A stretch of DNA of 64,000 nucleotides. Origin: Ligilactobacillus faecis (GTDB lineage: Bacteria > Bacillota > Bacilli > Lactobacillales > Lactobacillaceae). Each line of letters starts with the position of its first letter. The stretch's first letter is position 1. The notes under the pieces are model-generated. The model was given only the letters and a program-made list of their open reading frames with translations, did not search any database and was not told the origin of the DNA. A program made the translations under genes and the position numbers. The stretch covers positions 2,151,501-2,215,500 of the forward strand of contig NZ_CP123639.1 in assembly GCF_029889745.1 (NCBI RefSeq), written 5' to 3'. This document shows positions 7,494 to 61,649 of this stretch, piece by piece.

Positions 7494-8504
7494 TTATTCG
7501 TATAAAACCTTAAAGACTGCTTCTGTTAATGTTTTTTTAGCAAAAAAGCCTTCACGAATAAGTGGGGCAAAAGCTTCAACCCGTTGGACCATCTCATGAT
7601 ACTTTTGGTCACTTAAAGCTTGAACTAGAGTAACGGCTTCCTTTAAATCAGAAACTGCAAAGCCTAGACCTTTTTCTACGATCCTCTGACTTTCAGGTAA
7701 TTCTTTGGGCAAGATCAACGGGATGCCTGCTGCCAGATATGTACTCAATTTATGGTTAGCATTGAGTTGCATATATTTACTCCAGTAAGCATTGTCATCC
7801 CAAACTAAGCCAAATCCACCATTTGTTCGTAATTTTTCAATTAAAACCCCATCTGACTGCCAACCACCAAACTTGATGTTTGCATTTTCAGGGACCTCTA
7901 CCTGCTCACTAAATACATATAAACTAGTTTCAGCGAATTTCCAATTTTGTATAAATCTAAACTTTTCTGGATTACCAGCAAAGTTAATAACTTTAGTGTT
8001 TTGTGGAATAGTCAACGGGTTGATCTGACATAAATGATCCCACATATGCTGAACTACGATCTTTTCGACTGTCAGACCTTCAGTACGTAAAAAATCAGCC
8101 ATATTTTGAGAAGCAACGATAACAAGATCAGCACTGTTATAAAAATCAATAAACTTAGGCAGTAAATAGCGATTCGATTCAAACATCAATGGAATGATGT
8201 CATGAATAAAGATGATCTTATTAACAGCGTACGGTGCTAAGTGATCAAGAAAGGCTTGATCCCATTCGATCGAATTCCAACTTGGAGATTGAAAAATGAT
8301 CGTATCCCCTTTACTGACCGAAGCAATGATCCCATCAAAACGTGCATTGAGTTGCGCATCTGGTTCTTCTGGCCAGTTATAGTTGTAGATCCCCAGTTCT
8401 TTGAAACCAAGTTCTCGGCAAGCAATTTGAGCGACTTGATTTTGCGCAAGTTGCGCAGTGCTTTGGTAACTTTGGCCATGTATATTTGTGATATGCACTT
8501 TCAT
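7494..8504 (-). CDS. Gtf3-like sugar transferase
   Basis: About 336 residues resembling the glucosyltransferase-3 (Gtf3/Nss) and galactofuranosyltransferase-like group used in adhesin or cell-wall glycan modification. Visible hallmarks are [14 protein letters not shown] in the first half and [19 protein letters not shown] in the second, where Gtf3 enzymes bind the nucleotide sugar. There is no signal or membrane helix. A distant paralog lies at 51969-52994. ATG 8504 is preferred. GTG 8513 lies in a hairpin and the nearest Shine-Dalgarno is upstream of that hairpin. With the Gfo/Idh gene it interrupts the conserved ytp cluster, which suggests accessory DNA. Confidence 0.7.
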
Positions 8505-8510
8505 TTCAAT

Positions 8511-8578
8511 CACTATCCTATAGCCTGTGGAATTATATAACGATCTATATAATCAGAAATACTATAGTGCTTCCTTTC
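8511..8578 (-). promoter_or_regulatory. Leader with Shine-Dalgarno set apart by a hairpin (glycosyltransferase)
   Basis: GAAAGGA (8572-8578) precedes the arm CACTA (8565-8569). Its partner TAGTG (8511-8515) lies just before the ATG at 8504, which has no Shine-Dalgarno of its own. A TTTC within the loop could instead pair with GAAA of the Shine-Dalgarno. It is the same design as in nine other leaders of this window. Confidence 0.5.
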
Positions 8579-9678: not shown

Positions 9679-10329
9679 TTATTTGCTTGTTTTGAAATGT
9701 GCTTCTAACTTATAGATTGGTTGACCTTTTTGACTGAATTTTTCTTCATATTCTGTCATCACATTGTCAACTAAGTCGGGAGTTTGGTGAAGATCTAACC
9801 AAACTTGATCAAATTCCATCCCATAGTTATTCATGCTTACTAATGAATACTCAAAAAGACCACGATTGTCAGTCTTAAATTCTAAGTGACCTTCTGCGCA
9901 CATAACTTCTTCATATTGAGCTAAAAAACTCTTATATGTCAAACGCCGTTTCTCAGTACGCTTCTTCGGCCACGGGTCTGAAAAATTCAAATAGATCCCA
10001 CTGACTTCATTTTTTTCAAAAAATTCTGTCAGTCCACTCCCGTTAGCACAAATAAATTGGAGATTCGGTAACTGTGCTTCAAGTTGTTTTTTCAAAGCGA
10101 TCCCTGTTGCTACAGTTTGCATCTCGATCCCGATAAAATTTCTTTCTGGATATTTTTTAGCCATTTCGACGATGAAACGACCTTTTCCCATCCCAACTTC
10201 AATATAAAGTGGTTGTTTTTTGGCAAAACGACTTTGCCATTTTCCACGCAACTCAGCTGGTTCTGTAACGACATATTGCGGGTTTTCCTCGATCAAAGGC
10301 TTCGCCCAAGGTTTATTTCTTAAACGCAT
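9679..10329 (-). CDS. trmB: tRNA (guanine-N7-)-methyltransferase
   Basis: A 216-residue class I SAM-dependent methyltransferase that makes m7G46 in the tRNA variable loop. The SAM-binding segment [13 protein letters not shown] lies near residues 45-57, and the family signature [17 protein letters not shown] near 112-128. Length and motifs are standard. Its ATG at 10329 has no adjacent Shine-Dalgarno. GAAAGGA lies 28 bases upstream beyond a hairpin (10338-10364). It follows ytmP in the same direction. Confidence 0.95.
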
Positions 10330-10337
10330 CTTTTTTT

Positions 10338-10364
10338 AACTAGTTAACAACTAGTTTTCCTTTC
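10338..10364 (-). promoter_or_regulatory. trmB leader: Shine-Dalgarno, 8-bp hairpin, start codon
   Basis: GAAAGGA (10358-10364) is followed by AACTAGTT (10349-10356), a 3-base loop, AACTAGTT (10338-10345), then eight bases to ATG. Folding the hairpin would bring the Shine-Dalgarno to normal distance. This is the simplest and clearest copy of the design. Confidence 0.6.
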
Positions 10365-10383
10365 TATAACTAACTTTCACTAA

Positions 10384-10420
10384 ATAAGGGACAAAAGGTG
10401 CACTGCCTTTTATCCCTTAT
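10384..10420. repeat. 15-bp inverted repeat between ytmP and trmB
   Basis: Arms 10384-10398 and 10406-10420 (one G-U) enclose a 7-base loop. No T-run follows on the minus strand, so it is more likely a processing or attenuating stem than a full terminator. Confidence 0.6.
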
Positions 10421-17051: not shown

Positions 17052-17390
17052 TTAGTCTTTATATAATTCTTGAACTGGTTGGAAGATGATCTGGCTCACT
17101 TCATCCATCAACATACTCAAAGCTTGTTCTTTCAACATAAGTTGTTGTAAAGTTTCAAAGTCTTTAGCTTTAGCTCCTGCTTCTTGTAGCTTCTTGAAAT
17201 CTTCTTCAGTGATCTCGCCTTTCATCTGCTTTTGTTGCATCTCTTCTTGCAAAGTTTGCAATTCTTTGAAGCAACTATAAGCAGCTTCATCAGCTTTTAA
17301 AGCATCATAAGCAGCTTTGAGCTCTGTGTATTGTTGGGTTTCTTTTAACTCGCTTCCCATTTGGTTAGCCGTATCATAAATGTTTACCAT
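17052..17390 (-). CDS. ylbF: YlbF/YmcA family regulator
   Basis: A 112-residue, mostly helical protein (a com_ylbF domain throughout, e.g. AYSCFKELQTLQEEMQQKQMKG). In Bacillus the YlbF-YmcA-YaaT complex tunes RNase Y cleavage and affects competence and biofilm. It is probably a cytoplasmic RNA-decay modulator here. ATG 17390 has AAGGATAG ten bases upstream. A 215-base structured leader precedes it (17391-17620). It is monocistronic. Confidence 0.88.
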   Translation of the reverse strand: MVNIYDTANQMGSELKETQQYTELKAAYDALKADEAAYSCFKELQTLQEEMQQKQMKGEITEEDFKKLQEAGAKAKDFETLQQLMLKEQALSMLMDEVSQIIFQPVQELYKD

Positions 17391-17620
17391 AGATCTTCTA
17401 TCCTTGCTATATCAAATATGGCTCAAGATAAAGTACTTTATCCTGCTAAAAAGAAATATAGCCTTCCTTTCATGTTTATTTGCTACTCTTAGTTTCAAAA
17501 AATAACTTAAGCAGCTCTAAAAGATAGTCATCATCCTGATCCTTAGTACCTAGTCCATATTTTATCTTTTTTGTAGATACTATCGATCAACTATCTTTTT
17601 ACTTTTCAATTACTATTATA
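17391..17620 (-). promoter_or_regulatory. Long structured ylbF leader with SD-hairpin module
   Basis: A -10 TATAAT lies at 17615-17620 with a weak -35. The RNA then contains a long-range stem (AAAGATAGT near 17592-17600 with ACTATCTTT near 17521-17530). Next come GAAAGGA (17465-17471), arm GCTATAT (17456-17462) and its partner ATATAGC (17406-17412), 15 bases before ATG. The decamer CTAGGTACTA (17544-17553) recurs in the phoH leader. Confidence 0.55.
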
Positions 17621-20366: not shown

Positions 20367-20446
20367 AAGATCACCTCAAACATTAGTACACATCTTGATA
20401 CATATCATTTTAACAAAAAAAACTTAACAATCATAGGTCAACTACT

Positions 20447-20514
20447 GCTATATAAAATGTAAGTAAACATGAACAAATAATTATGTTTGAGAAAGAAATA
20501 TAGCTTTTCCTTTC
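20447..20514 (-). promoter_or_regulatory. Copy of the SD-hairpin leader module upstream of argR
   Basis: GAAAGGA (20508-20514), arm GCTATAT (20498-20504) and partner ATATAGC (20447-20453) match the clpB copy closely over about 70 bases, including a TTTCTTTC that could mask the Shine-Dalgarno. The nearest ATG 12 bases past the hairpin opens only a 9-codon frame. argR starts about 80 bases further with its own Shine-Dalgarno. Confidence 0.5.
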
Positions 20515-20529
20515 CTAATTTTATTTACT

Positions 20530-20618
20530 ACCGTCAACGCTAATTCCTATATCCTAACTAAAGGGTAATGATATTGACTAGCTCTAATAGCTTTAGGGTA
20601 TAGCCCCCCTTCATATTT
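20530..20618 (-). other. Possible relic of IS200/IS605 right end or omega-RNA
   Basis: Directly after the tnpB remnant stop, the minus strand reads GGGGGGCTATACCCTAAAG, then a small hairpin (AGCTA/TAGCT at about 20579-20596), with ATACCCTAA able to pair with TTAGGATAT. The position and structure fit the right end, from which TnpB guide RNA is made. Its decay makes function unlikely. Confidence 0.35.
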
Positions 20619-21235
20619 TTAATCTATTAAAGTCAAAAGATTTTTTACTGCATTTTCACCTCTATCCATAACTAGACCACATCCATAACAAATATATTTG
20701 TTTTATTCTATGTTTTTCATTACCATTGAGACCAACTTTATCTTCGCCAGTCTTAATAAAGCCACACTTAGAACAACGTTGCGTGCTTGGATAATATTTA
20801 TCAGCTAAAACTACTTTTTTACATACCAGTTACACTTATAAGTTAATGCTTGTCTAAAGTAGCCAAATAATGAACGTTGAAGTCCTTTAGCGGCAATATG
20901 TGTCATTTGCATTTTCTTGACATCTAGATCTTCGATTACGATCTGATCGTAATTAATAACTAACTTGGTGGTAAATTTTGGATAATGTCATGTTCACTTT
21001 GAGATGATCACGTTATACTTTGGTTCTCTTCTTAACGTAATTACTCGTCTATGTGGTTTAGATGTCCGACATTGACGTCAACGGCTGAGTTCTTACCTGT
21101 CTGGATCTTCTTTTTTATCTCGATCCCCAAAGGCAAACTCGCCCAGTATTTACTATTTTCACGATGAATTGAAATAACTTTTAATTCATCTTCTAAGTTC
21201 TTAGCGTCTTTTAATCTAATATCATACTAAGTTTT
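20619..21235 (-). pseudogene. tnpB: Decayed IS200/IS605-family TnpB, truncated and frameshifted
   Basis: Pieces of TnpB can be read in several frames on the minus strand. Near 21080-21200 is KVISIHRENSKYWASLP and a degenerate AVDVNVGH. Near 20860-20960 come VIEDLDVKKMQMTHIAAKGL (the RuvC Glu region) and LFGYFRQALTYKCNW. Near 20720-20800 comes LADKYYPSTQRCSKCG, and after one more frameshift YICYGCGLVMDRGENAV, completing the zinc ribbon. The end is at 20619. The N-terminal part is missing and at least three frame breaks are present, so it cannot make an active nuclease. No tnpA is nearby. Confidence 0.85.
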
Positions 21236-21243
21236 GCTCCTGC

Positions 21244-29103: not shown

Positions 29104-31706
29104 TATTTTTGGATAAGATCCTTTGTCTCAAAAGCGACTTGATCACCAGCAAGTTTTAATAAGACCTCAGAATGAGGCATGATCTGCCCAGCGATCAAAG
29201 CTTTAGCAAGTGGAGTCTCGATCTTTTCTGTGATGAAACGCTGTAATGGACGCGCACCATAAGCTGGATCGTAACCATTTTTTGCGATCCACGCCTTCAA
29301 TTCATCACTTAAAACTAATTTGATCTCTTGATCAGCTAAACGTTTCGTCAAACGTTCGATAAATTTTGTCACGATCTCAGTCACGGCTAAAAGATCCAAC
29401 GGTGTGAACATGATGATATCATCGATCCGATTTAAAAACTCAGGTTTAAAGTGTGCTTGAGCGATCTTTAAAACTTGCTCTTTAGTTTTATCTGAGATCT
29501 GACCATCAGTTGAGGCATCATTTAAAAGCAATTCTGAACCTAAATTAGAAGTCAAGATCAAGATCGTATTTCTAAAATCAACTGTCCGCCCTTGACCATC
29601 TGTCAAACGTCCGTCATCTAAAACTTGTAGTAACAAATTGAAAACATCGGGATGCGCTTTTTCGATCTCATCAAATAACACGATCGTATAAGGATCTCGG
29701 CGCACAGCCTCTGTCAATTGGCCGCCTTCTTCATAGCCGATGTACCCAGGTGCTGCTCCTACTAGCCGTGAGATCGAAGCTTTTTCCATATATTCAGACA
29801 TGTCGATCCGCACCATATGCTTTTCTGAATCAAAGAGATCTTCAGCTAACGCTTTAGCTAATTCCGTTTTCCCGACCCCAGTTGGTCCTAAAAACATAAA
29901 AGAGCCTAACGGTTTAGATGGATCTTGTAGACCGGCGCGCGAACGTAAGACAGCATCTGAAACAGCTTTGACTGCTTCGTCTTGTCCGATCACACGTTGG
30001 TGTAACTTTTCATCAAGGTGTAACAGTTTTTCTCTTTCACCTTGAACGATCTTGTTGACTGGGATCCCTGTCAAACGACTGACAACTGAAGCGATCTCAT
30101 CGTCAGTAACTGATTCTTCAACTAAGAGATGCGCAGGCTTTTTCTCATTTTCAAGTGTGGCTAGCTCTTGTTCGAGTTTTGGGATCACTCCATACTGTAA
30201 CTTAGCTGCTTTTTCAAGTTCATAGTCACTCTCAGCTGTTTGCAATTCTTGCTTAGCGTGATCAAGCTCAGCCTTTTTATCACTAACTTTTTGAATACTT
30301 TCGCGTTCACTTTCCCACCGCATCTTTAATTGATTTGCTTGCTCTCTTAAATCAGCTAACTCGCTTTGCATCTCTGCTAATCTTTTTTTAGAGGCTGAGT
30401 CGCTTTCCTTTTTCAAAGCAGCTTCTTCAACTTCTTTACGCATCAATTCACGCGTGACTTGATCAAGTTCAGTTGGCATCGAATTCATCTCAACTCTGAT
30501 CTCAGCACAAGCTTCATCGACTAGATCGATCGCTTTATCTGGCAAATAGCGATCAGTGATGTAACGGTCAGATAATGTTGCTGCTGCGACTAACGCATTA
30601 TCATGGATCCGTACTCCGTGGTGTGTTTCATACCGTTCTTTTAAACCACGCAAGATCGAGATCGTCTCAGTGACACTTGGCTCTTTAACTAAAACTTTTT
30701 GAAAACGCCGTTCAAGTGCTTTGTCTTTTTCTAAATATTCACGATATTCATCTAACGTCGTCGCCCCGATCAAGTGCAATTCTCCTCGGGCAAGCATTGG
30801 TTTCAAGAGATTCCCCGCATCCATACTTCCCTCGGTTTTACCTGCACCAACGATATTATGGATCTCATCGATAAATAAGATGATCTGACCTTCACTTTTA
30901 GCGACTTCTTTTAAAACAGCTTTCAATCGTTCTTCAAATTCACCACGATACTTAGCACCTGCGATCAAAGCTCCCATATCAAGTGAAAAGATCGTCTTAT
31001 CTTTCAAATTATCTGGAACATCGCGTGAAACGATCCGTTGCGCCAAGCCTTCAATGATCGCCGTCTTGCCGACCCCAGGTTCTCCAAGCAACACAGGATT
31101 ATTTTTGGTTTTGCGTGATAAGATCCGGATTACATCGCGGATCTCATCATCGCGTCCGATGATCGGATCTTGCTTACCTTTTTTGACTTGTTTGACTAGA
31201 TCGATCCCGTATTTTTCTAAAGCCTTATATTGCTCTTCTTGATTTTTAGAAGTTACTTTCTCACCATTGCGCAATTGAACAACAACTTCTTCTAACTTTT
31301 TAGCAGTGATCTTGTGTTCTGTTAAAAATTTGACTAATGGATCATAAGTTTGCTTCATCAAAGCTAAAACAAGAGTATCTAAGGCAATATATTCGTCAGC
31401 AAACTGTTTTTTGATCTCATCTGCATCCCGTAAAAGTTGTAACAACTTTTGGCTAAAAGTTTGACCATAGCTCACATTACCAGTCAAAACAGGTTGCTCA
31501 GCTAAAATTTGATCGATCTTTTGCTCAAATCCATTTAGATCAATGCCAGCCCTTTTATAAATATCAGCGACTAGTTCACCTGGTTGCACTAAAAATTTAA
31601 ATAGGTGGCTCACATCGATCGCTTGATTTTTACGGGTGATCGCGATCTGTTGTGCTTGTCCTAAAGCATCTTGGACTGCTGTCGTAAAATTATTTTCATC
31701 ATTCAT
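29103..31706 (-). CDS. clpB: ATP-dependent disaggregase ClpB
   Basis: An 867-residue Hsp100 chaperone. The N-domain covers residues 1-145. The first AAA domain has Walker A GEPGVGKT near 205, followed by the coiled middle domain (about 405-520). The second AAA domain has [13 protein letters not shown] near 605. It rescues aggregated proteins with DnaK. The start region carries only a weak AGG. A strong GAAAGGA lies 86 bases upstream beyond a hairpin. No CIRCE and no convincing CtsR operator is seen in the 230-base leader, which is unusual for a clp gene. Confidence 0.96.
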
Positions 31707-31720
31707 CGTCTTCTTTGCCT

Positions 31721-31917
31721 GCTATATAAAATGTGAATAAACATACTTATTTATAATAAATGAGCACATTTTTAGAAAGAAATATAGCTTTTCCTTTCTT
31801 GATCTTATTTACCATTATTGCTATCAAAAGGCCCTACTTTTGACGGCAAATATATTCGCCTCACATTTGATCTTTCTTACGAATCTTGATCATATCTCAG
31901 TATCTTTGGGCCAACAA
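31721..31917 (-). promoter_or_regulatory. clpB promoter and structured leader
   Basis: A -35 TTGTTG (31912-31917), 17 bases, and a -10 TATGAT (31889-31894) predict a leader of about 175 bases. It holds hairpin GGCGAA-TATA-TTTGCC (31846-31861 area), hairpin TCAAAAG-TAGGGC-CTTTTGA (31824-31843 area), GAAAGGA (31792-31798), arm GCTATAT (31782-31788) and partner ATATAGC (31721-31727), then 14 bases to ATG. TTTCTTTC at 31775-31782 can pair with the Shine-Dalgarno instead. Confidence 0.6.
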
Positions 31918-40442: not shown

Positions 40443-41359
40443 TATTTTTCCTCCTCTAGCAGTTTTTGACGTAATTTTTCATCTTTCAACAATGGATAGC
40501 CTAATTTTTTACGTTCGGCCACAAATGCACGTGCTACTGAACGTGCCATGTTACGGATCCGTGAAAGATAGCCAGCACGTTCTGTCACTGAAACAGCCCC
40601 GCGAGCATCTAATAAATTAAATGTATGGCTGCATTTTAAAATATAATCATACGCTGGATGGACAAGTCCTTTTTCGATCTGTTTTTTAGCTTCTGCTTCA
40701 TACGTATCAAAGAGCGTAAGTAACATTTCTTGATCACTTTCCTCAAAGGAATATTTAGAATGTTCGTACTCAGGTTCTTTGAAAATATCGCCATATTTTA
40801 CACCATCAGCCCATTCAAGTTCAAAAACTGAATTAACATCTTGGATATACGAAGAAAGGCGCTCAAGTCCATAAGTTACTTCAACTGCAACCGGTTTGAC
40901 TTCAAGGCCACCAACTTGTTGGAAATACGTGAACTGGGTGATCTCCATTCCATCGAGCCAAACTTCCCAGCCAACACCAGCACACCCCATCGAAGGGTTT
41001 TCCCAGTTATCTTCAACAAAGCGAATATCATGTTCTAGCGGATCGATCCCTAAAGCACGTAAACTATCTAAATAAAGTTCTTGGATATTTTCTGGCGAAG
41101 GTTTCATGATCACTTGGAATTGATGATGCTGGTATAAGCGGTTGGGATTTTCGCCATAACGACCATCAGCAGGACGTCTGGAAGGTTCAACATAAGCTAC
41201 ATTCCATGGTTCAGGCCCGATCGCCCGTAGAAATGTATATGGGCTCATCGTTCCGGCCCCTTTTTCTGTGTCATATGCTTGCATCAACATACAACCTTGA
41301 CGTGCCCAAAATTGTTGTAACGTCAAAATGATATCTTGCATCGCTAATTTATCTGCCAT
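40442..41359 (-). CDS. glyQ: Glycine--tRNA ligase alpha subunit
   Basis: A 305-residue catalytic chain of alpha2beta2 GlyRS. It starts [16 protein letters not shown], has the class II motif [19 protein letters not shown] near 45-63 and [20 protein letters not shown] near 155. It charges tRNA-Gly. AAGGTCGAG lies before ATG 41359. An additional GAAAGGA is 48 bases upstream, beyond a hairpin. It heads the glyQS operon. Confidence 0.96.
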
Positions 41360-41371
41360 AAACTCGACCTT

Positions 41372-41413
41372 CTACTGATTGTGTGTAAATAGAAATATCA
41401 GTAGTTTCCTTTC
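41372..41413 (-). promoter_or_regulatory. SD-hairpin module ahead of glyQ
   Basis: GAAAGGA (41407-41413) is followed by arm CTACTGAT (41397-41404), and partner ATCAGTAG (41372-41379) ends 12 bases before ATG. TTTC in the loop can pair with GAAA. An outer stem AGTTCAAA (41475-41482 with 41437-41444) lies upstream. Confidence 0.5.
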
Positions 41414-44401: not shown

Positions 44402-45388
44402 TTATTCCTCATTTTCTGTTTGTTTATTTTGTGCATCATAGGCTTTGATGATCTCAGAAACGACCGGATGTCGAACTACATCAGCTGCATCAAAATTGAC
44501 AAAACCGATCTGGGGTAACCCTTTTAAGATCTTCTCTGCATCGACAAGCCCACTTTGTTGATGTCCACGTGGCAGATCGATCTGCGAACGGTCACCGTTT
44601 ACGACCATCTTCGAACCAAAGCCAAGCCGCGTCAAGAACATTTTCATTTGTGCCCTAGTCGTATTTTGAGCTTCATCTAAGATCACAAATGCATTATCTA
44701 ATGTTCTTCCACGCATATAAGCTAGTGGTGCGATCTCGATCACACCTCGTTCGATCAAACGTTCAACATGTTCAGCCCCTAAGATCGAATTTAACGCATC
44801 ATAGATCGGACGTAAATAAGGGTCGACTTTTTCTTTGAGATCACCAGGCAAAAAACCTAGTGATTCACCCGCTTCAACTGCTGGGCGAGTCAAGATCAAG
44901 CGCTCGACTTCTCGGCGTTTTAAAGCAGCCACCGCCATCACGACAGCTAAATAAGTTTTCCCCGTTCCGGCTGGTCCGATCCCAAAAACTAGATCTTTAT
45001 GTTTGATCTCTTGCACATATTGTCTTTGTCCATAATTTTTGACGCGGATCACACGTCCCCGACGATCTTTTAGTAGTTCTTCTGTATAAAGATCTTTGAA
45101 ATATTCTAACGTTCCTCGTTCAGCCATCTTTAAGGCTGAAACGATATCTGGTCCGCTGATCGTGATATTTTTACGTAAAAGTGCGGTCAATTCTTGTAAG
45201 ATCGCATAAGCATCATTAACATTTTCTGCTTGTCCTGTGATCTTGATCACACCACCAAAAGGCTTCAATACAACGTCTAGACCTTCTTCCAGTAATTTAA
45301 GATGGCTATCATTGATCCCTGCAAGTGAGATCTGTAACTGTGAATCATTTACGATATATTCTTTTTCGATCAACTTTTCTTCGTTCAA
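44402..45388 (-). CDS. phoH: PhoH-family ATPase
   Basis: A 328-residue protein with an N-terminal KH-like part and a P-loop ATPase (GIGPAGTGKTYLA near 138, VILDEAQNTT near 238). It is probably an RNA helicase-like ATPase, and the precise function is unsettled. It is encoded with ybeY as usual. The start is uncertain: TTG 45388 lies directly after AGGCGG, and a second TTG 15 bases later is possible. A roughly 280-base structured leader precedes it. Confidence 0.9.
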   Translation of the reverse strand: MNEEKLIEKEYIVNDSQLQISLAGINDSHLKLLEEGLDVVLKPFGGVIKITGQAENVNDAYAILQELTALLRKNITISGPDIVSALKMAERGTLEYFKDLYTEELLKDRRGRVIRVKNYGQRQYVQEIKHKDLVFGIGPAGTGKTYLAVVMAVAALKRREVERLILTRPAVEAGESLGFLPGDLKEKVDPYLRPIYDALNSILGAEHVERLIERGVIEIAPLAYMRGRTLDNAFVILDEAQNTTRAQMKMFLTRLGFGSKMVVNGDRSQIDLPRGHQQSGLVDAEKILKGLPQIGFVNFDAADVVRHPVVSEIIKAYDAQNKQTENEE

Positions 45389-45678
45389 CCGCCTATTTAT
45401 CGCTATTTAAAATGTGAGCGTCCCTAACTATCTCTCAAGGAACGCGAAAGTTAGATAGCTTTCCTTTCTCGATTTTTCTCATATAATGGATAATAAATAG
45501 TAGTACCTAGCGAAGCATTTACTTGTGACTAAAATCACACATTAACATATGGACTACTCTGAACTTTGATATTTATTTCACATCTAAACTTTCCTTTAAA
45601 TATCAAAAACAGTCATAGTCAACGACCTAACTTCTAAATACTAGGTACCTAGCTTCGTATCCGCTTTGATATACCCCA
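45389..45678 (-). ncRNA. Long structured phoH 5' leader, candidate regulatory RNA
   Basis: After the promoter, the RNA can close a P1-like stem CGAAGC with GCTTCG (about 45651-45656 and 45511-45516). This encloses a GACTA/TAGTC arm, a TTTGATATTT/AAATATCAAAG arm and a hairpin GTGTGA-TTTTAG-TCACA. Downstream come GAAAGGA (45462-45468), arm GCTAT (45455-45459), an inner GCGTTCC/GGGACGC stem, and partner ATAGC (45402-45406) 13 bases before the start. The fold is inferred by eye. Confidence 0.5.
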
Positions 45679-46699: not shown

Positions 46700-46752
46700 G
46701 AAAGGAGTAGCTATATATTTTCATCAGCACATTTATATAGCGATCATCATCT
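46700..46752 (+). promoter_or_regulatory. SD-hairpin module of the PPDK regulator gene
   Basis: GAAAGGAG (46700-46707), arm GCTATAT (46710-46716), partner ATATAGC (46735-46741), then 11 bases to ATG 46753. No other Shine-Dalgarno is present. It is the only copy on the plus strand, so the design follows gene orientation and not a strand-biased repeat. Confidence 0.6.
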
Positions 46753-47568
46753 ATGTCAAATAAGGCCAATATTTATGCTATCTCAGATTCATTAGGGGAA
46801 ACAAGTTATGCACTTGCTCAAGCAGCCGCCGTCCAATTCCCACAAACCGATTTTAAGATCCAACGTTTTCCATTGATCAAGACAGTCTCGATCTTGACTG
46901 GGATCTTAAATCGTGCTAAGCGTGAAGATGCTACGATCTTTCATACTTTTGTCGATCCCGAGTTATCAAATTTTGCGAATAATTTTTGTAAAGATAACGG
47001 ACTGATCGTGATCGATGCTTTGAGCCAAGCTCTGACTGAGCTTTCGCAAAAAACAGGGCAAAAACCACTGCAAAAAGCCGGGATCAATCACAATACTGAC
47101 AAAGAATATTTCAATCGGATCGAAGCTTTAGAATTCGCTGTCACATACGACGATGGTAAAGACCCAGCCGGCTTCTTAAAAGCTGACCTAGTTTTATTAG
47201 GGATCTCGCGTACTTCTAAGACGCCACTTTCGCTTTTCCTAGCTAACCGCGGTTACAAAGTCGCTAATTTACCACTCGTTCCTAAAGCTCAGATCCCACA
47301 AGAGATCTATAAAGTCGATCCAAATAAGATCTTTGGACTAACAAATGATCCTGAGATCTTGAACGGTATCAGACGTGAACGCATGATCTCTTACGGACTT
47401 GATCCAGATACACACTACTCAAATATCGATAACATCGAAAGCGAGTTACGCTTTGCCAATGAACTTTATAAAAAACTAGGTTGTCCAGTGATCAACGTTG
47501 CACACAAATCGATCGAAGAAACAGCAACGATCATCACCGAAAGTTTAGACAATAACGCCAAAAAATAA
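46753..47568 (+). CDS. Pyruvate, phosphate dikinase regulatory protein
   Basis: A 271-residue DUF299 protein (YqfL/PpsR family), a bifunctional kinase and pyrophosphorylase acting on PPDK or PEP synthase. It starts IYAISDSLGETSYALAQAA and has the P-loop-like LLGISRTSKTPLS near residue 150. Its target enzyme is not in the window. The start codon lacks a nearby Shine-Dalgarno and depends on the upstream hairpin module. An IS3 element lies directly downstream, with no terminator between. Confidence 0.92.
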   Translation: MSNKANIYAISDSLGETSYALAQAAAVQFPQTDFKIQRFPLIKTVSILTGILNRAKREDATIFHTFVDPELSNFANNFCKDNGLIVIDALSQALTELSQKTGQKPLQKAGINHNTDKEYFNRIEALEFAVTYDDGKDPAGFLKADLVLLGISRTSKTPLSLFLANRGYKVANLPLVPKAQIPQEIYKVDPNKIFGLTNDPEILNGIRRERMISYGLDPDTHYSNIDNIESELRFANELYKKLGCPVINVAHKSIEETATIITESLDNNAKK

Positions 47569-47637: not shown

Positions 47638-48369
47638 CTAGGCAGCCTGATTCCGGTATTCTTCTGGAGTCAGGCTGTTTAGTTTTATTTGGTAACGTTG
47701 GGTATTGTAGAACTTGATATAGTTTTCGATCATTTCTACAAGTTCTCCATATGTTTCACATTTTAGCCAATAATAACATTCTGTCTTGAAATGACTCCAA
47801 AAACTTTCCATTGGTGCGTTATCGATACATTTCCCCACTCGAGACATACTTCTTGTAACACCATGCCTTGAGGTCAACCGAAGATATTCCTTTGAAGTAT
47901 ATTGAAATCCACGATCACTGTGAAGAAGTAGATTAGCTTCATTTAAATGCGTGAATGCTTTTTCTAAAGTCTTCATGACAAGCCGATTATCATTTCTTTT
48001 ACTAATTTCAAAACTTATGATAGATCCATCGTATAGATCTTTGATCGCACTTAAATAAGCTTTTTGTCCTAAGCCATATTCTAAATAAGTGACATCAGTC
48101 ACCCACTTTTGATTAGGTCTAGTAGCGGAAAAATCACGACCTAAAGTATTTTCTTCGTAGTTTAAATGTTCTGAACGAGTACAACCTCGGCGTTTGCGAC
48201 GAATTACTGAATATAAACCAAGGACTCTCATTAAGCGACGAATACGTTTGAAGTTATATTGTTTTTGATACTTTCGATTGATAAGAAGAGTCATTCTTCT
48301 AGAACCGTAAATTCCATTTAAAGCATGAAATTCTTTTTTTATGATCTCACTTAACCATTCATTTTCCAA
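47638..48369 (-). CDS. IS3 transposase OrfB (integrase core), copy 1
   Basis: The 243 residues from the first ATG hold a DDE integrase core: WVTDVTYLEYG with the first Asp, LLHSDRGFQYTS with the second, and NAPMESFWSHFKTE with the Glu. The same frame stays open upstream to the orfA end (EISFIPKNLRFKAIQ, then LTAPKSQCTLENEW). The functional form is therefore an OrfAB fusion made by -1 slippage at A AAA AAA (48546-48552). It appears intact and active. Confidence 0.9.
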   Translation of the reverse strand: MENEWLSEIIKKEFHALNGIYGSRRMTLLINRKYQKQYNFKRIRRLMRVLGLYSVIRRKRRGCTRSEHLNYEENTLGRDFSATRPNQKWVTDVTYLEYGLGQKAYLSAIKDLYDGSIISFEISKRNDNRLVMKTLEKAFTHLNEANLLLHSDRGFQYTSKEYLRLTSRHGVTRSMSRVGKCIDNAPMESFWSHFKTECYYWLKCETYGELVEMIENYIKFYNTQRYQIKLNSLTPEEYRNQAA

Positions 48370-48518
48370 AGTACATTGTGATTTTGGAGCAGTTAAATAA
48401 CGATAATACCCTGAGCGCGATACATTTAAGATCGCACAAAGGATCCAGAGTTCAATTTGTGGAAACTCTTTAAGAACTTCCTGAATAGCTTTAAAACGCA
48501 GATTTTTAGGTATAAAGC

Positions 48519-49208
48519 TTATCTCCTCCTTTCGAGTTCGTCCAATTTTTTTAAAACGATATTTTCTGCTTCTAGATATTTATTACGTTCTTTCAAACGT
48601 AGGATCTCAAGCTTGAGACGCTCAGTTTCAGAAAGAGTCTTATAATCACGATCTTTAACTGTTTTACCACGATTATCGTATAATGCCTTTTCGCCATCTA
48701 CTTCAAACTTTTTGACCCAATTATAGACTTGGGAATAAGAAACATTATATTTATCGATCGCTTTGTGATAATTCTTATTATTAGCAAGTGTATACTGAAC
48801 TATTTCGAGCCGTTCCTTAAAAGTAGTTTTACGTCCATGTTTCATTCTATTACGACCTCCAATGGTAGCTTTAAAGCCTTTTCCATTAGTATACAAGTTG
48901 ATCCATTTACGTAAAACCGAAACACTCGAAATATTGTATTTATCACAAATTTTCTTTGGTGAACGTCCATTTTCTAAATATTCTAGAACCGCAGTTGTTT
49001 TTAATTCAACTGAATATTCTTTCCAGGTTCTAGACTCTTTTAAGCCATCTAAACCGCCAGCTTTGTATTTTCTGATCCAATTATCAAATGTATTTTTAGA
49101 AATGGTATATTTCCGGCAGATAAAGTACTTACTATATTGTCCACTAAGATACTCGGAGACTGCCTGGTATCTTTCTTCAAGTGTATGTTTAGTAGTTCTT
49201 CTAGACAT
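48519..49208 (-). CDS. IS3 transposase OrfA, copy 1
   Basis: About 229 residues with repeated helix-turn-helix units (YFICRKYTISKNTFDNWIRKY and two similar blocks) that bind the element ends, then a C-terminal leucine-rich coil LKLEILRLKERNKYLEAEN. ATG 49208 has AGGGGG upstream. It ends in LDELERRR just after the A7 slippery site that feeds the orfB frame. Confidence 0.88.
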   Translation of the reverse strand: MSRRTTKHTLEERYQAVSEYLSGQYSKYFICRKYTISKNTFDNWIRKYKAGGLDGLKESRTWKEYSVELKTTAVLEYLENGRSPKKICDKYNISSVSVLRKWINLYTNGKGFKATIGGRNRMKHGRKTTFKERLEIVQYTLANNKNYHKAIDKYNVSYSQVYNWVKKFEVDGEKALYDNRGKTVKDRDYKTLSETERLKLEILRLKERNKYLEAENIVLKKLDELERRR

Positions 49209-49319
49209 AAAAAATCCCCCTAGAGTGATCACAGAATCTTTATTATTTCCGTGTCCACTCTAGGGGAATCATATCAAAAGTCGCTTCATTGCTCAACTTA
49301 AGAGGGCTACTTTTTATTT

Positions 49320-57130: not shown

Positions 57131-57183
57131 CCATATAAAATGTAGTAGATCATTAATGATCTTGAAAGATATATATCCTTTCA
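57131..57183 (-). promoter_or_regulatory. hisS leader hairpin over a Shine-Dalgarno
   Basis: GAAAGGA (57176-57182) lies inside a near-perfect stem TGAAAGGATAT/ATATCTTTCA (57163-57183), so it can be masked. An alternative longer pairing of ATATAT with ATATGG (57131-57136) is possible. ATG 57123 has a weak GGTG. Confidence 0.45.
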
Positions 57184-57512: not shown

Positions 57513-58013
57513 TCAACGATTATTTTCTAAATGCTCTAAAAAGCCTAACGCTGTTTTATAATCAGGTTCATTAGTTTGTTCTTTGATCAGTTCTTGATAT
57601 AAGATCTCTCCATTTTCAGCAACGACCCAAATACTCCGAGCATCGATCTTTTTGTCAGCAACATACAACCCTAACGCCTTTCCAAATTCAGCTTGTACAT
57701 CGGAAAGAAGTTGCATTTTTTCAACACCTTCAGTCGCACACCAATTGGCTTGTTCAGCTAAAGTATTTGTCGAGATCGTGTAAAAATTGAATCCTTGATA
57801 CTTGTCGACTTCTTGGTTGAAATGCTTAGTTGAAAGGCTACAAACTCTGGTATCGATATCTGGCACGACACTGATCAAACTTGGTTTAGTCAATAGCTCT
57901 TTAGTGGACAAAGTCTTATTGGGAGCTAAAACCTTAAACTCTGGCAAAAATTCACCTACTTTAGGTGGCATTTTCTCTGTTTGACTAGCAACTCCGTGAA
58001 ATGTGATCTCCAT
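57513..58013 (-). CDS. tpx: Thiol peroxidase Tpx
   Basis: A 166-residue atypical 2-Cys peroxiredoxin that reduces peroxides with thioredoxin. The peroxidatic Cys is in DIDTRVCSLST near residue 58 and the resolving Cys in ANWCATEGVEK near 92. Only AGATAAAGCTA lies before ATG 58013. The good Shine-Dalgarno GAAGGAG is 75 bases upstream, beyond a hairpin. It is monocistronic. Confidence 0.94.
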   Translation of the reverse strand: MEITFHGVASQTEKMPPKVGEFLPEFKVLAPNKTLSTKELLTKPSLISVVPDIDTRVCSLSTKHFNQEVDKYQGFNFYTISTNTLAEQANWCATEGVEKMQLLSDVQAEFGKALGLYVADKKIDARSIWVVAENGEILYQELIKEQTNEPDYKTALGFLEHLENNR

Positions 58014-58025
58014 TAGCTTTATCTG

Positions 58026-58094
58026 CTATCAAATGGTAGAGTTTAGCACTAAAGATCTGTGCTTTCTTCAGAAAGAAAGATAGCTTCTCCTTCG
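58026..58094 (-). promoter_or_regulatory. SD-hairpin module of tpx
   Basis: GAAGGAG (58088-58094), arm GCTATC (58080-58085), partner GATAGC (58026-58031), then 12 bases to ATG. TTTCTTTC follows the first arm and can pair with the Shine-Dalgarno. The downstream spacer has no alternative ribosome site. Confidence 0.55.
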
Positions 58095-59997: not shown

Positions 59998-60729
59998 CTA
60001 GGCAGCCTGATTCCGGTATTCTTCTGGAGTCAGGCTGTTTAGTTTTATTTGGTAACGTTGGGTATTGTAGAACTTGATATAGTTTTCGATCATTTCTACA
60101 AGTTCTCCATATGTTTCACATTTTAGCCAATAATAACATTCTGTCTTGAAATGACTCCAAAAACTTTCCATTGGTGCGTTATCGATACATTTCCCCACTC
60201 GAGACATACTTCTTGTAACACCATGCCTTGAGGTCAACCGAAGATATTCCTTTGAAGTATATTGAAATCCACGATCACTGTGAAGAAGTAGATTAGCTTC
60301 ATTTAAATGCGTGAATGCTTTTTCTAAAGTCTTCATGACAAGCCGATTATCATTTCTTTTACTAATTTCAAAACTTATGATAGATCCATCGTATAGATCT
60401 TTGATCGCACTTAAATAAGCTTTTTGTCCTAAGCCATATTCTAAATAAGTGACATCAGTCACCCACTTTTGATTAGGTCTAGTAGCGGAAAAATCACGAC
60501 CTAAAGTATTTTCTTCGTAGTTTAAATGTTCTGAACGAGTACAACCTCGGCGTTTGCGACGAATTACTGAATATAAACCAAGGACTCTCATTAAGCGACG
60601 AATACGTTTGAAGTTATATTGTTTTTGATACTTTCGATTGATAAGAAGAGTCATTCTTCTAGAACCGTAAATTCCATTTAAAGCATGAAATTCTTTTTTT
60701 ATGATCTCACTTAACCATTCATTTTCCAA
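59998..60729 (-). CDS. IS3 transposase OrfB (integrase core), copy 2
   Basis: Same 243 residues as the first copy, with the DDE core intact. Expression requires the A7 slippery site at 60906-60912 to join orfA with the open frame that runs upstream of this ATG. Confidence 0.9.
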   Translation of the reverse strand: MENEWLSEIIKKEFHALNGIYGSRRMTLLINRKYQKQYNFKRIRRLMRVLGLYSVIRRKRRGCTRSEHLNYEENTLGRDFSATRPNQKWVTDVTYLEYGLGQKAYLSAIKDLYDGSIISFEISKRNDNRLVMKTLEKAFTHLNEANLLLHSDRGFQYTSKEYLRLTSRHGVTRSMSRVGKCIDNAPMESFWSHFKTECYYWLKCETYGELVEMIENYIKFYNTQRYQIKLNSLTPEEYRNQAA

Positions 60730-60878
60730 AGTACATTGTGATTTTGGAGCAGTTAAATAACGATAATACCCTGAGCGCGATACATTTAAGATCGCACAAA
60801 GGATCCAGAGTTCAATTTGTGGAAACTCTTTAAGAACTTCCTGAATAGCTTTAAAACGCAGATTTTTAGGTATAAAGC

Positions 60879-61568
60879 TTATCTCCTCCTTTCGAGTTCG
60901 TCCAATTTTTTTAAAACGATATTTTCTGCTTCTAGATATTTATTACGTTCTTTCAAACGTAGGATCTCAAGCTTGAGACGCTCAGTTTCAGAAAGAGTCT
61001 TATAATCACGATCTTTAACTGTTTTACCACGATTATCGTATAATGCCTTTTCGCCATCTACTTCAAACTTTTTGACCCAATTATAGACTTGGGAATAAGA
61101 AACATTATATTTATCGATCGCTTTGTGATAATTCTTATTATTAGCAAGTGTATACTGAACTATTTCGAGCCGTTCCTTAAAAGTAGTTTTACGTCCATGT
61201 TTCATTCTATTACGACCTCCAATGGTAGCTTTAAAGCCTTTTCCATTAGTATACAAGTTGATCCATTTACGTAAAACCGAAACACTCGAAATATTGTATT
61301 TATCACAAATTTTCTTTGGTGAACGTCCATTTTCTAAATATTCTAGAACCGCAGTTGTTTTTAATTCAACTGAATATTCTTTCCAGGTTCTAGACTCTTT
61401 TAAGCCATCTAAACCGCCAGCTTTGTATTTTCTGATCCAATTATCAAATGTATTTTTAGAAATGGTATATTTCCGGCAGATAAAGTACTTACTATATTGT
61501 CCACTAAGATACTCGGAGACTGCCTGGTATCTTTCTTCAAGTGTATGTTTAGTAGTTCTTCTAGACAT
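60879..61568 (-). CDS. IS3 transposase OrfA, copy 2
   Basis: Same 229-residue helix-turn-helix protein as in copy 1, with no substitutions by reading. ATG 61568 has AGGGGG upstream. Confidence 0.88.
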   Translation of the reverse strand: MSRRTTKHTLEERYQAVSEYLSGQYSKYFICRKYTISKNTFDNWIRKYKAGGLDGLKESRTWKEYSVELKTTAVLEYLENGRSPKKICDKYNISSVSVLRKWINLYTNGKGFKATIGGRNRMKHGRKTTFKERLEIVQYTLANNKNYHKAIDKYNVSYSQVYNWVKKFEVDGEKALYDNRGKTVKDRDYKTLSETERLKLEILRLKERNKYLEAENIVLKKLDELERRR

Positions 61569-61649
61569 AAAAAATCCCCCTAGAGTGATCACAGAATCTT
61601 TATTATTTCCGTGTCCACTCTAGGGGAATCATATCAAATTGTGGGGAGT

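Follow-up and report, generated by a model that had tools for sequence, protein, structure and literature searches.

In genes 25 and 38 of phage T4, a hairpin shortens the distance between the Shine-Dalgarno (SD) sequence and the start codon from 27 to 11 nt and from 22 to 5 nt, respectively (PMC3014915). In the IStrons, which combine a group I intron with IS605/IS607, insertion is made harmless at the RNA level (PMC4227781). For other IS607 elements, the available passages of PMC6188088 give (G)GG as the preferred target, and those of PMC11061315 give AGGAG or GAGGG as the TAM of related IS607 TnpBs. Judged by their sequence, these TAMs are Shine-Dalgarno sequences. The AGGAG motif is not tied to the Shine-Dalgarno sequence in the passages of either paper at hand (the words are absent from those of PMC11061315), and no report tying IS607 or TnpB to SD sites was found among open-licence papers.

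In the window, which is the whole 64-kb stretch of Ligilactobacillus faecis DNA that was analyzed, the first-pass annotation had claimed a leader with a displaced SD, a bridging hairpin and a start codon for ten genes. Eight of these were confirmed (ppdkR, clpB, ylbF, phoH, tpx, glyQ, trmB and the glycosyltransferase gene), hisS was retained only in part, and argR was dropped. The leaders and the associated transposon remnants are located as follows:

46700..46741, plus strand: ppdkR leader; SD GAAAGGAG (46700-46707), stem GCTATATA (46710-46717) / TATATAGC (46734-46741), ATG at 46753
31721..31798, minus strand: clpB leader, a full-length copy of the IS607 right end; SD GAAAGGA, stem GCTATAT/ATATAGC, ATG at 31706
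17406..17471, minus strand: ylbF leader; SD GAAAGGA, stem GCTATATT/GATATAGC, ATG at 17390
17541..17619, minus strand: IS607 left-end remnant 5' of the ylbF leader, matched by BLAST over left-end positions 9-81 with an E value of 1e-4
45402..45468, minus strand: phoH leader; SD GAAAGGA, stem GCTATcTAA/TTAaATAGC with one mismatch, TTG at 45388
58025..58093, minus strand: tpx leader; SD GAAGGAG, stem GCTATC/GATAGC, ATG at 58013 (C1 2209513)
41372..41413, minus strand: glyQ leader; SD GAAAGGA, diverged stem CTACTGAT/ATCAGTAG, ATG at 41359
10338..10364, minus strand: trmB leader; SD GAAAGGA, short stem AACTAGTT/AACTAGTT, ATG at 10329
8511..8578, minus strand: glycosyltransferase leader; SD GAAAGGA, stem CACTAT/ATAGTG, likely start ATG at 8504
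57131..57183, minus strand: hisS leader, a decayed right end; GATCATTAATGATC is enclosed by the arms TATATA/TATAT, and the real start is ATG 57123
20445..21240, minus strand: IS607 remnant 5' of argR, comprising a right end (with its SD and stem at about 20446-20515) and a fragment of tnpB

The argR gene has its own SD, GAGGTGATC, and the element is found some 80 nt 5' of the argR start rather than next to it, while hisS has regained an ordinary GGAG SD 6 nt before ATG 57123. Therefore, neither was counted as a clear bridged leader. For trmB, no SD of at least 4 nt was present at the normal distance. A strong hairpin, GATAAGGGATAAAAGGCAGTGCACCTTTTGTCCCTTATT, is located just 5' of the trmB leader (window 10329-10420) and probably terminates the unit before it. 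In the glycosyltransferase gene, ATG 8504, which follows the stem, is likely a better start than GTG 8513. The TTG start of phoH is conserved in relatives, whose SDs are GGGAG. Upstream of the clpB leader, at about 109 nt, a left-end BLAST match was detected with an E value of 0.10. When the window was searched with Rfam, no known leader or riboswitch scored above the gathering threshold in the leaders, and a tRNA was the sole match.

Sequence comparison traces the leaders to the right end of a transposon of the IS607 family, about 2.03 kb long when intact. Near-identical repeats outside the window reach 2.03 kb upstream and terminate exactly at ATATAGCAG. Their TnpA matches PF13411 (1.3e-8), PF00376 and PF00239 (5.3e-20), that is, a MerR-like N-terminal domain and a serine recombinase, and their TnpB, the RNA-guided nuclease of such elements, matches PF07282 and PF01385. 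A match to RF03014 (Transposase-1 RNA; 68 bits) lies just upstream of the SD, although the Rfam model ends before the SD and the bridging stem of the L. faecis element. With the TnpB domains, the RF03014 match and a stem-pseudoknot, the right end is predicted to encode the 3' part of the TnpB guide RNA. In several elements, AGAAAGG can pair with CCTTTCT, or (C)UUUCU, behind the first arm; this pairing and the stem would form the H-type pseudoknot of the guide RNA. The same TnpA architecture and TnpB, and a guide RNA at the right end as predicted here, are described for the IS607 of Helicobacter pylori and the RAGATH-18 IS607 TnpB elements (e.g., ISFba1) in the passages available from PMC6188088 and PMC11061315. 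For trmB and glyQ, whose arms are the most diverged, descent from the transposon is suggested by the design of the leader and not by a sequence match. The IStron is the nearest analogue in strategy, but the L. faecis element differs from it in that an IStron splices out of the coding sequence, whereas here an initiation site is rebuilt; no group I intron was found in the Rfam scan of a full copy at E values up to 5.

Among the full or near-full copies in the L. faecis genome, five of seven are not located before a clear gene start. In several full copies, the tnpA frame is broken and is matched in pieces by tblastn (C1 1555380 and 1439003), whereas the TnpB frames are open. Immediately before the start codon of tnpA, the left end (C1 1555242-1555330 and others) carries an inverted repeat, AATATCTAC...GTAGATATT, whose arms flank GTGAGG; traces of this left end were also seen 5' of solo leaders. 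A strict motif of the left terminus was not enriched upstream of old copies. Weaker left-end matches were detected within 700 nt in 9 of 44 old copies, compared with 0.7 expected.

The element is inserted directly after an SD-like motif. At 13 left junctions (five in the L. faecis genome, three in L. salivarius plasmids and five in prophage contigs), the flank ends in GGAG (11 junctions) or GGTG (2 junctions). When the flanks are joined, normal ribosome sites result, e.g., TATAAAGGAG joined to TAATTGAA-ATG and AGAAGAAGGAG joined to ATGAAGTGC-ATG. At scpB, the element lies between TTAGTAGGTGGGAG and AAACA-ATG, compared with the empty site TTAGTGAGTGGTGAATTAA-ATG in L. apodemi, and the alignment of the flanks to this empty site showed no target duplication. 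Likewise, IS607 elements are reported to insert at GG/AGGAG without target duplication in the passages available from PMC6188088 and PMC11061315. Insertion after the SD motif predicts that the distance from the right end to the start matches the distance from GGAG to the start. This was found, with a mean of 8.0 nt (mode, 9) from the right end to the start in bridged leaders and a mean of 8.5 nt (mode, 9) from GGAG to the start in ordinary genes.

The whole L. faecis genome (2.38 Mb, two contigs) was scanned using gene starts partly taken from a simple codon-usage caller, several of them backed by conserved N-termini and RefSeq. The order of SD GAAAGG, hairpin and start codon was found in about 70 to 100 genes, which supports the claimed design on a genome-wide scale as far as sequence can tell. 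The 3' end of the 16S rRNA is GGATCACCTCCTTTCT, indicating that GAAAGGA is a fair SD. GAAAGG occurred 125 times at positions -85 to -25 of gene starts versus 28.5 expected (ratio, 4.4), and the best ratio among other permutations of its letters was 1.4. In 77 bridged genes, the SD is past the working distance and the gap is filled by a hairpin of 15 to 86 nt, leaving an effective spacing of about 14 nt. This mean is 4 nt longer than that of ordinary GAAAGG sites, so the efficiency may be reduced. An SD match of at least 5 nt at the normal distance was present in 12 of the 77 bridged genes versus 973 of 1,755 others.

The pairing of the arms was specific to each gene. Stems of at least 7 bp numbered 62 with the genes' own arms and about 12 when arms were exchanged among genes; for stems of at least 8 bp, the numbers were 23 and about 2.5. 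For the covariation test, 74 genes were picked only by GAAAGG, CTA, TAG and the start codon, leaving the inner pairing unused. At the five inner positions, 66.5% of the cells were paired, compared with 54.0 ± 2.0% after the arms were swapped, and 32 doubly changed Watson-Crick pairs were observed, compared with 8.0 after swapping (maximum of 16 in 500 swaps). Compensatory variation of the arms, which had been proposed from the window, is thus borne out by these counts. Stem counts against shuffled spacers, made without an SD-specific filter, gave a weak signal (281 versus about 311 for at least 5 bp; 67 versus about 31 for at least 7 bp), and the tests were therefore tied to GAAAGG. Consensus folding of a MAFFT leader alignment gave no structure because the arms were misaligned. 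Matches to the DNA pattern in Pelagibacter and in MAGs were attributed to chance.

Of 301 Lactobacillaceae genomes sampled, 34, distributed over 12 genera, had the same right ends marked by RF03014. Among 30 right ends of other genomes or of plasmids, 21 had an open start 3 to 13 nt further on, versus 15% of random positions, and in the RefSeq annotation of two plasmid copies the starts are 8 to 9 nt after the right end. The targets, identified from their N-termini, include coaD, rimM, ileS, mutY, ecfT and a copper-ATPase gene, and intact copies are placed before coaD, ileS, rimM, mutY and scpB across several genera of Lactobacillaceae. The stem varies in step across lineages, as GCTATAT/ATATAGC, TATATAAAAC/GTTTTATATA, TATGTAA/TTACATA and TATGCAA/TTGCATA. 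The IS607 elements of L. crispatus plasmids, which belong to a related branch, have a right end that finishes with CATAGC and lacks GAAAGGA, so not every member of the family carries the SD.

The leaders had been proposed as a genome-wide class on housekeeping genes. In relatives, ppdkR has a plain GGGAGG SD, phoH orthologues also have plain SDs, and rbfA, glyQ, der and trmFO of L. apodemi have plain SDs as well (GGAGGAG for glyQ). These results indicate that most leaders are recent on the L. faecis branch. Together with the identity of the element as an IS607 right end, they indicate that the leaders are not an ancestral host class; the bridging design itself is supported. Five leaders are common to L. 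faecis and L. apodemi, with different arms and conserved pairing, e.g., ACTTTAGTA/TACTAAAGT in L. faecis and GCTACAA/TTGTAGC in L. apodemi for cdsA. Covariation in orthologous leaders, proposed earlier as a check, was thus observed for the leaders that L. apodemi also has. L. apodemi has further leaders of its own, e.g., at rimM, and one leader is common to L. animalis and L. murinus. In RNA folds, the SD was unpaired with a probability of 0.78 in short decayed hairpins versus 0.35 in long transposon-like copies, and the stem with a free SD was favored in short copies and less so in long ones. In long copies, the SD can pair with the segment UUUCUUUC and is predicted to be mostly unavailable.

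Taken together, the leaders are very probably IS607 right ends that were inserted at SDs, rebuilt the ribosome site and were later domesticated. As the junctions show, the element inserts right after a GGAG- or AGGAG-like motif, very often the SD of a gene, with its right end always facing that gene. The anatomy of the leaders shows that the old SD is displaced and that its place is taken by the right end, consisting of AGAAAGGA, 3 to 5 nt, the hairpin and AG, at 7 to 9 nt from the start. As is strongly indicated, AGAAAGGA would then pair with the 3' tail of the 16S rRNA while the spacer is folded out by the hairpin, for an effective distance of about 14 nt. Since a new SD and a folding spacer are supplied, the host gene would probably still be translated. 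Ribosomes thus presumably use the distal SD at a distance made workable by the hairpin, by analogy with T4 genes 25 and 38, and the rebuilt site may have protected host genes at the time of insertion. The rest of the element would subsequently decay, with selection keeping the SD and the stem while the stem drifts by compensatory change; the segment UUUCUUUC, able to pair with the SD as the guide-RNA pseudoknot, would tend to be lost. We also consider it likely that this transposon class targets SDs, that its guide-RNA end has a replacement SD and a folding spacer so that even essential genes are not silenced, and that about 70 to 100 such ends are now host ribosome-binding sites in one lineage.

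The leaders could instead be passive relics, with right ends found before starts only because AGGAG is targeted, GAAAGG and the stem being merely the guide-RNA pseudoknot, and initiation depending on weak SDs or upstream coupling. The SD-like target motif at the junctions would alone explain the position of the right ends, and the AGAAAGG:CCTTTCT pairing in several elements does look like a guide-RNA pseudoknot. However, the stems go on pairing by compensatory change after the transposon sequence is lost, also among orthologues, another SD is rare in bridged genes, and insertions before the single-copy essential genes coaD and ileS must permit translation, which makes passive relics quite unlikely. 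A regulated switch is unlikely. In such a switch, the SD paired with UUUCUUUC would be off and the free SD with the outer stem on, perhaps with TnpB acting as a translational repressor via the guide-RNA fold. The anti-SD segment is kept in 26 of the 36 long copies, where the predicted SD accessibility is low, and TnpB copies with open frames are present. But only 10 of the 41 short leaders have this segment, the other 31 having kept the SD and the stem, and the genes have no common function that would point to a regulon.

The reading in which SD-hairpin leaders are ancient in the host and one was captured by an IS607 end is already disfavored and very improbable. While it would fit the excess of solo leaders over intact elements in the L. 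faecis genome, relatives are without leaders at phoH, ppdkR, rbfA, glyQ, der and trmFO, and the same right end and geometry travel with IS607 in many genera. It is also scarcely plausible that TATATAGC is a -10 box and that the mRNAs begin after the SD, leaderless or nearly so. Many copies contain TATATA, which is similar to a -10 box, but many arms have no -10-like sequence (CTACTGAT, AACTAGTT and CTAGTATC), the arms covary, and scpB, directly 3' of scpA, should be cotranscribed with it.

Rebuilding of the site by an IS607 right end would extend the known systems in several ways. The split ribosome-binding sites of T4 concern single phage genes, whereas the L. faecis leaders belong to dozens of host genes unrelated to one another and come from a mobile element. 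The available passages on IS607 elements describe neither the restoration of a ribosome-binding site by a right end nor the domestication of such an end. If true, it would explain the SD-like insertion motif of IS607 elements and add to self-splicing a second route by which a transposon repairs its target gene. Guide-RNA ends would have been domesticated as mRNA leaders, and the spacing rule of bacterial initiation could be tested on many naturally occurring split ribosome-binding sites. One RNA strand would also have to serve as both mRNA and guide-RNA precursor, which is a conflict.

Other mobile sequences were observed along with the IS607 element. A second, distant TnpB family with about 25% identity to the IS607 TnpB has about a dozen copies in the L. 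faecis genome (e.g., C1 1101548, 240404, 892722, 87020, 1394321 and 2072612). In the window, positions 47638-49232 and 59998-61592 contain near-twin pairs of open reading frames (243 and 237 amino acids, with the same antisense frame of 133 amino acids), which by sequence appear to be a single insertion element present twice.
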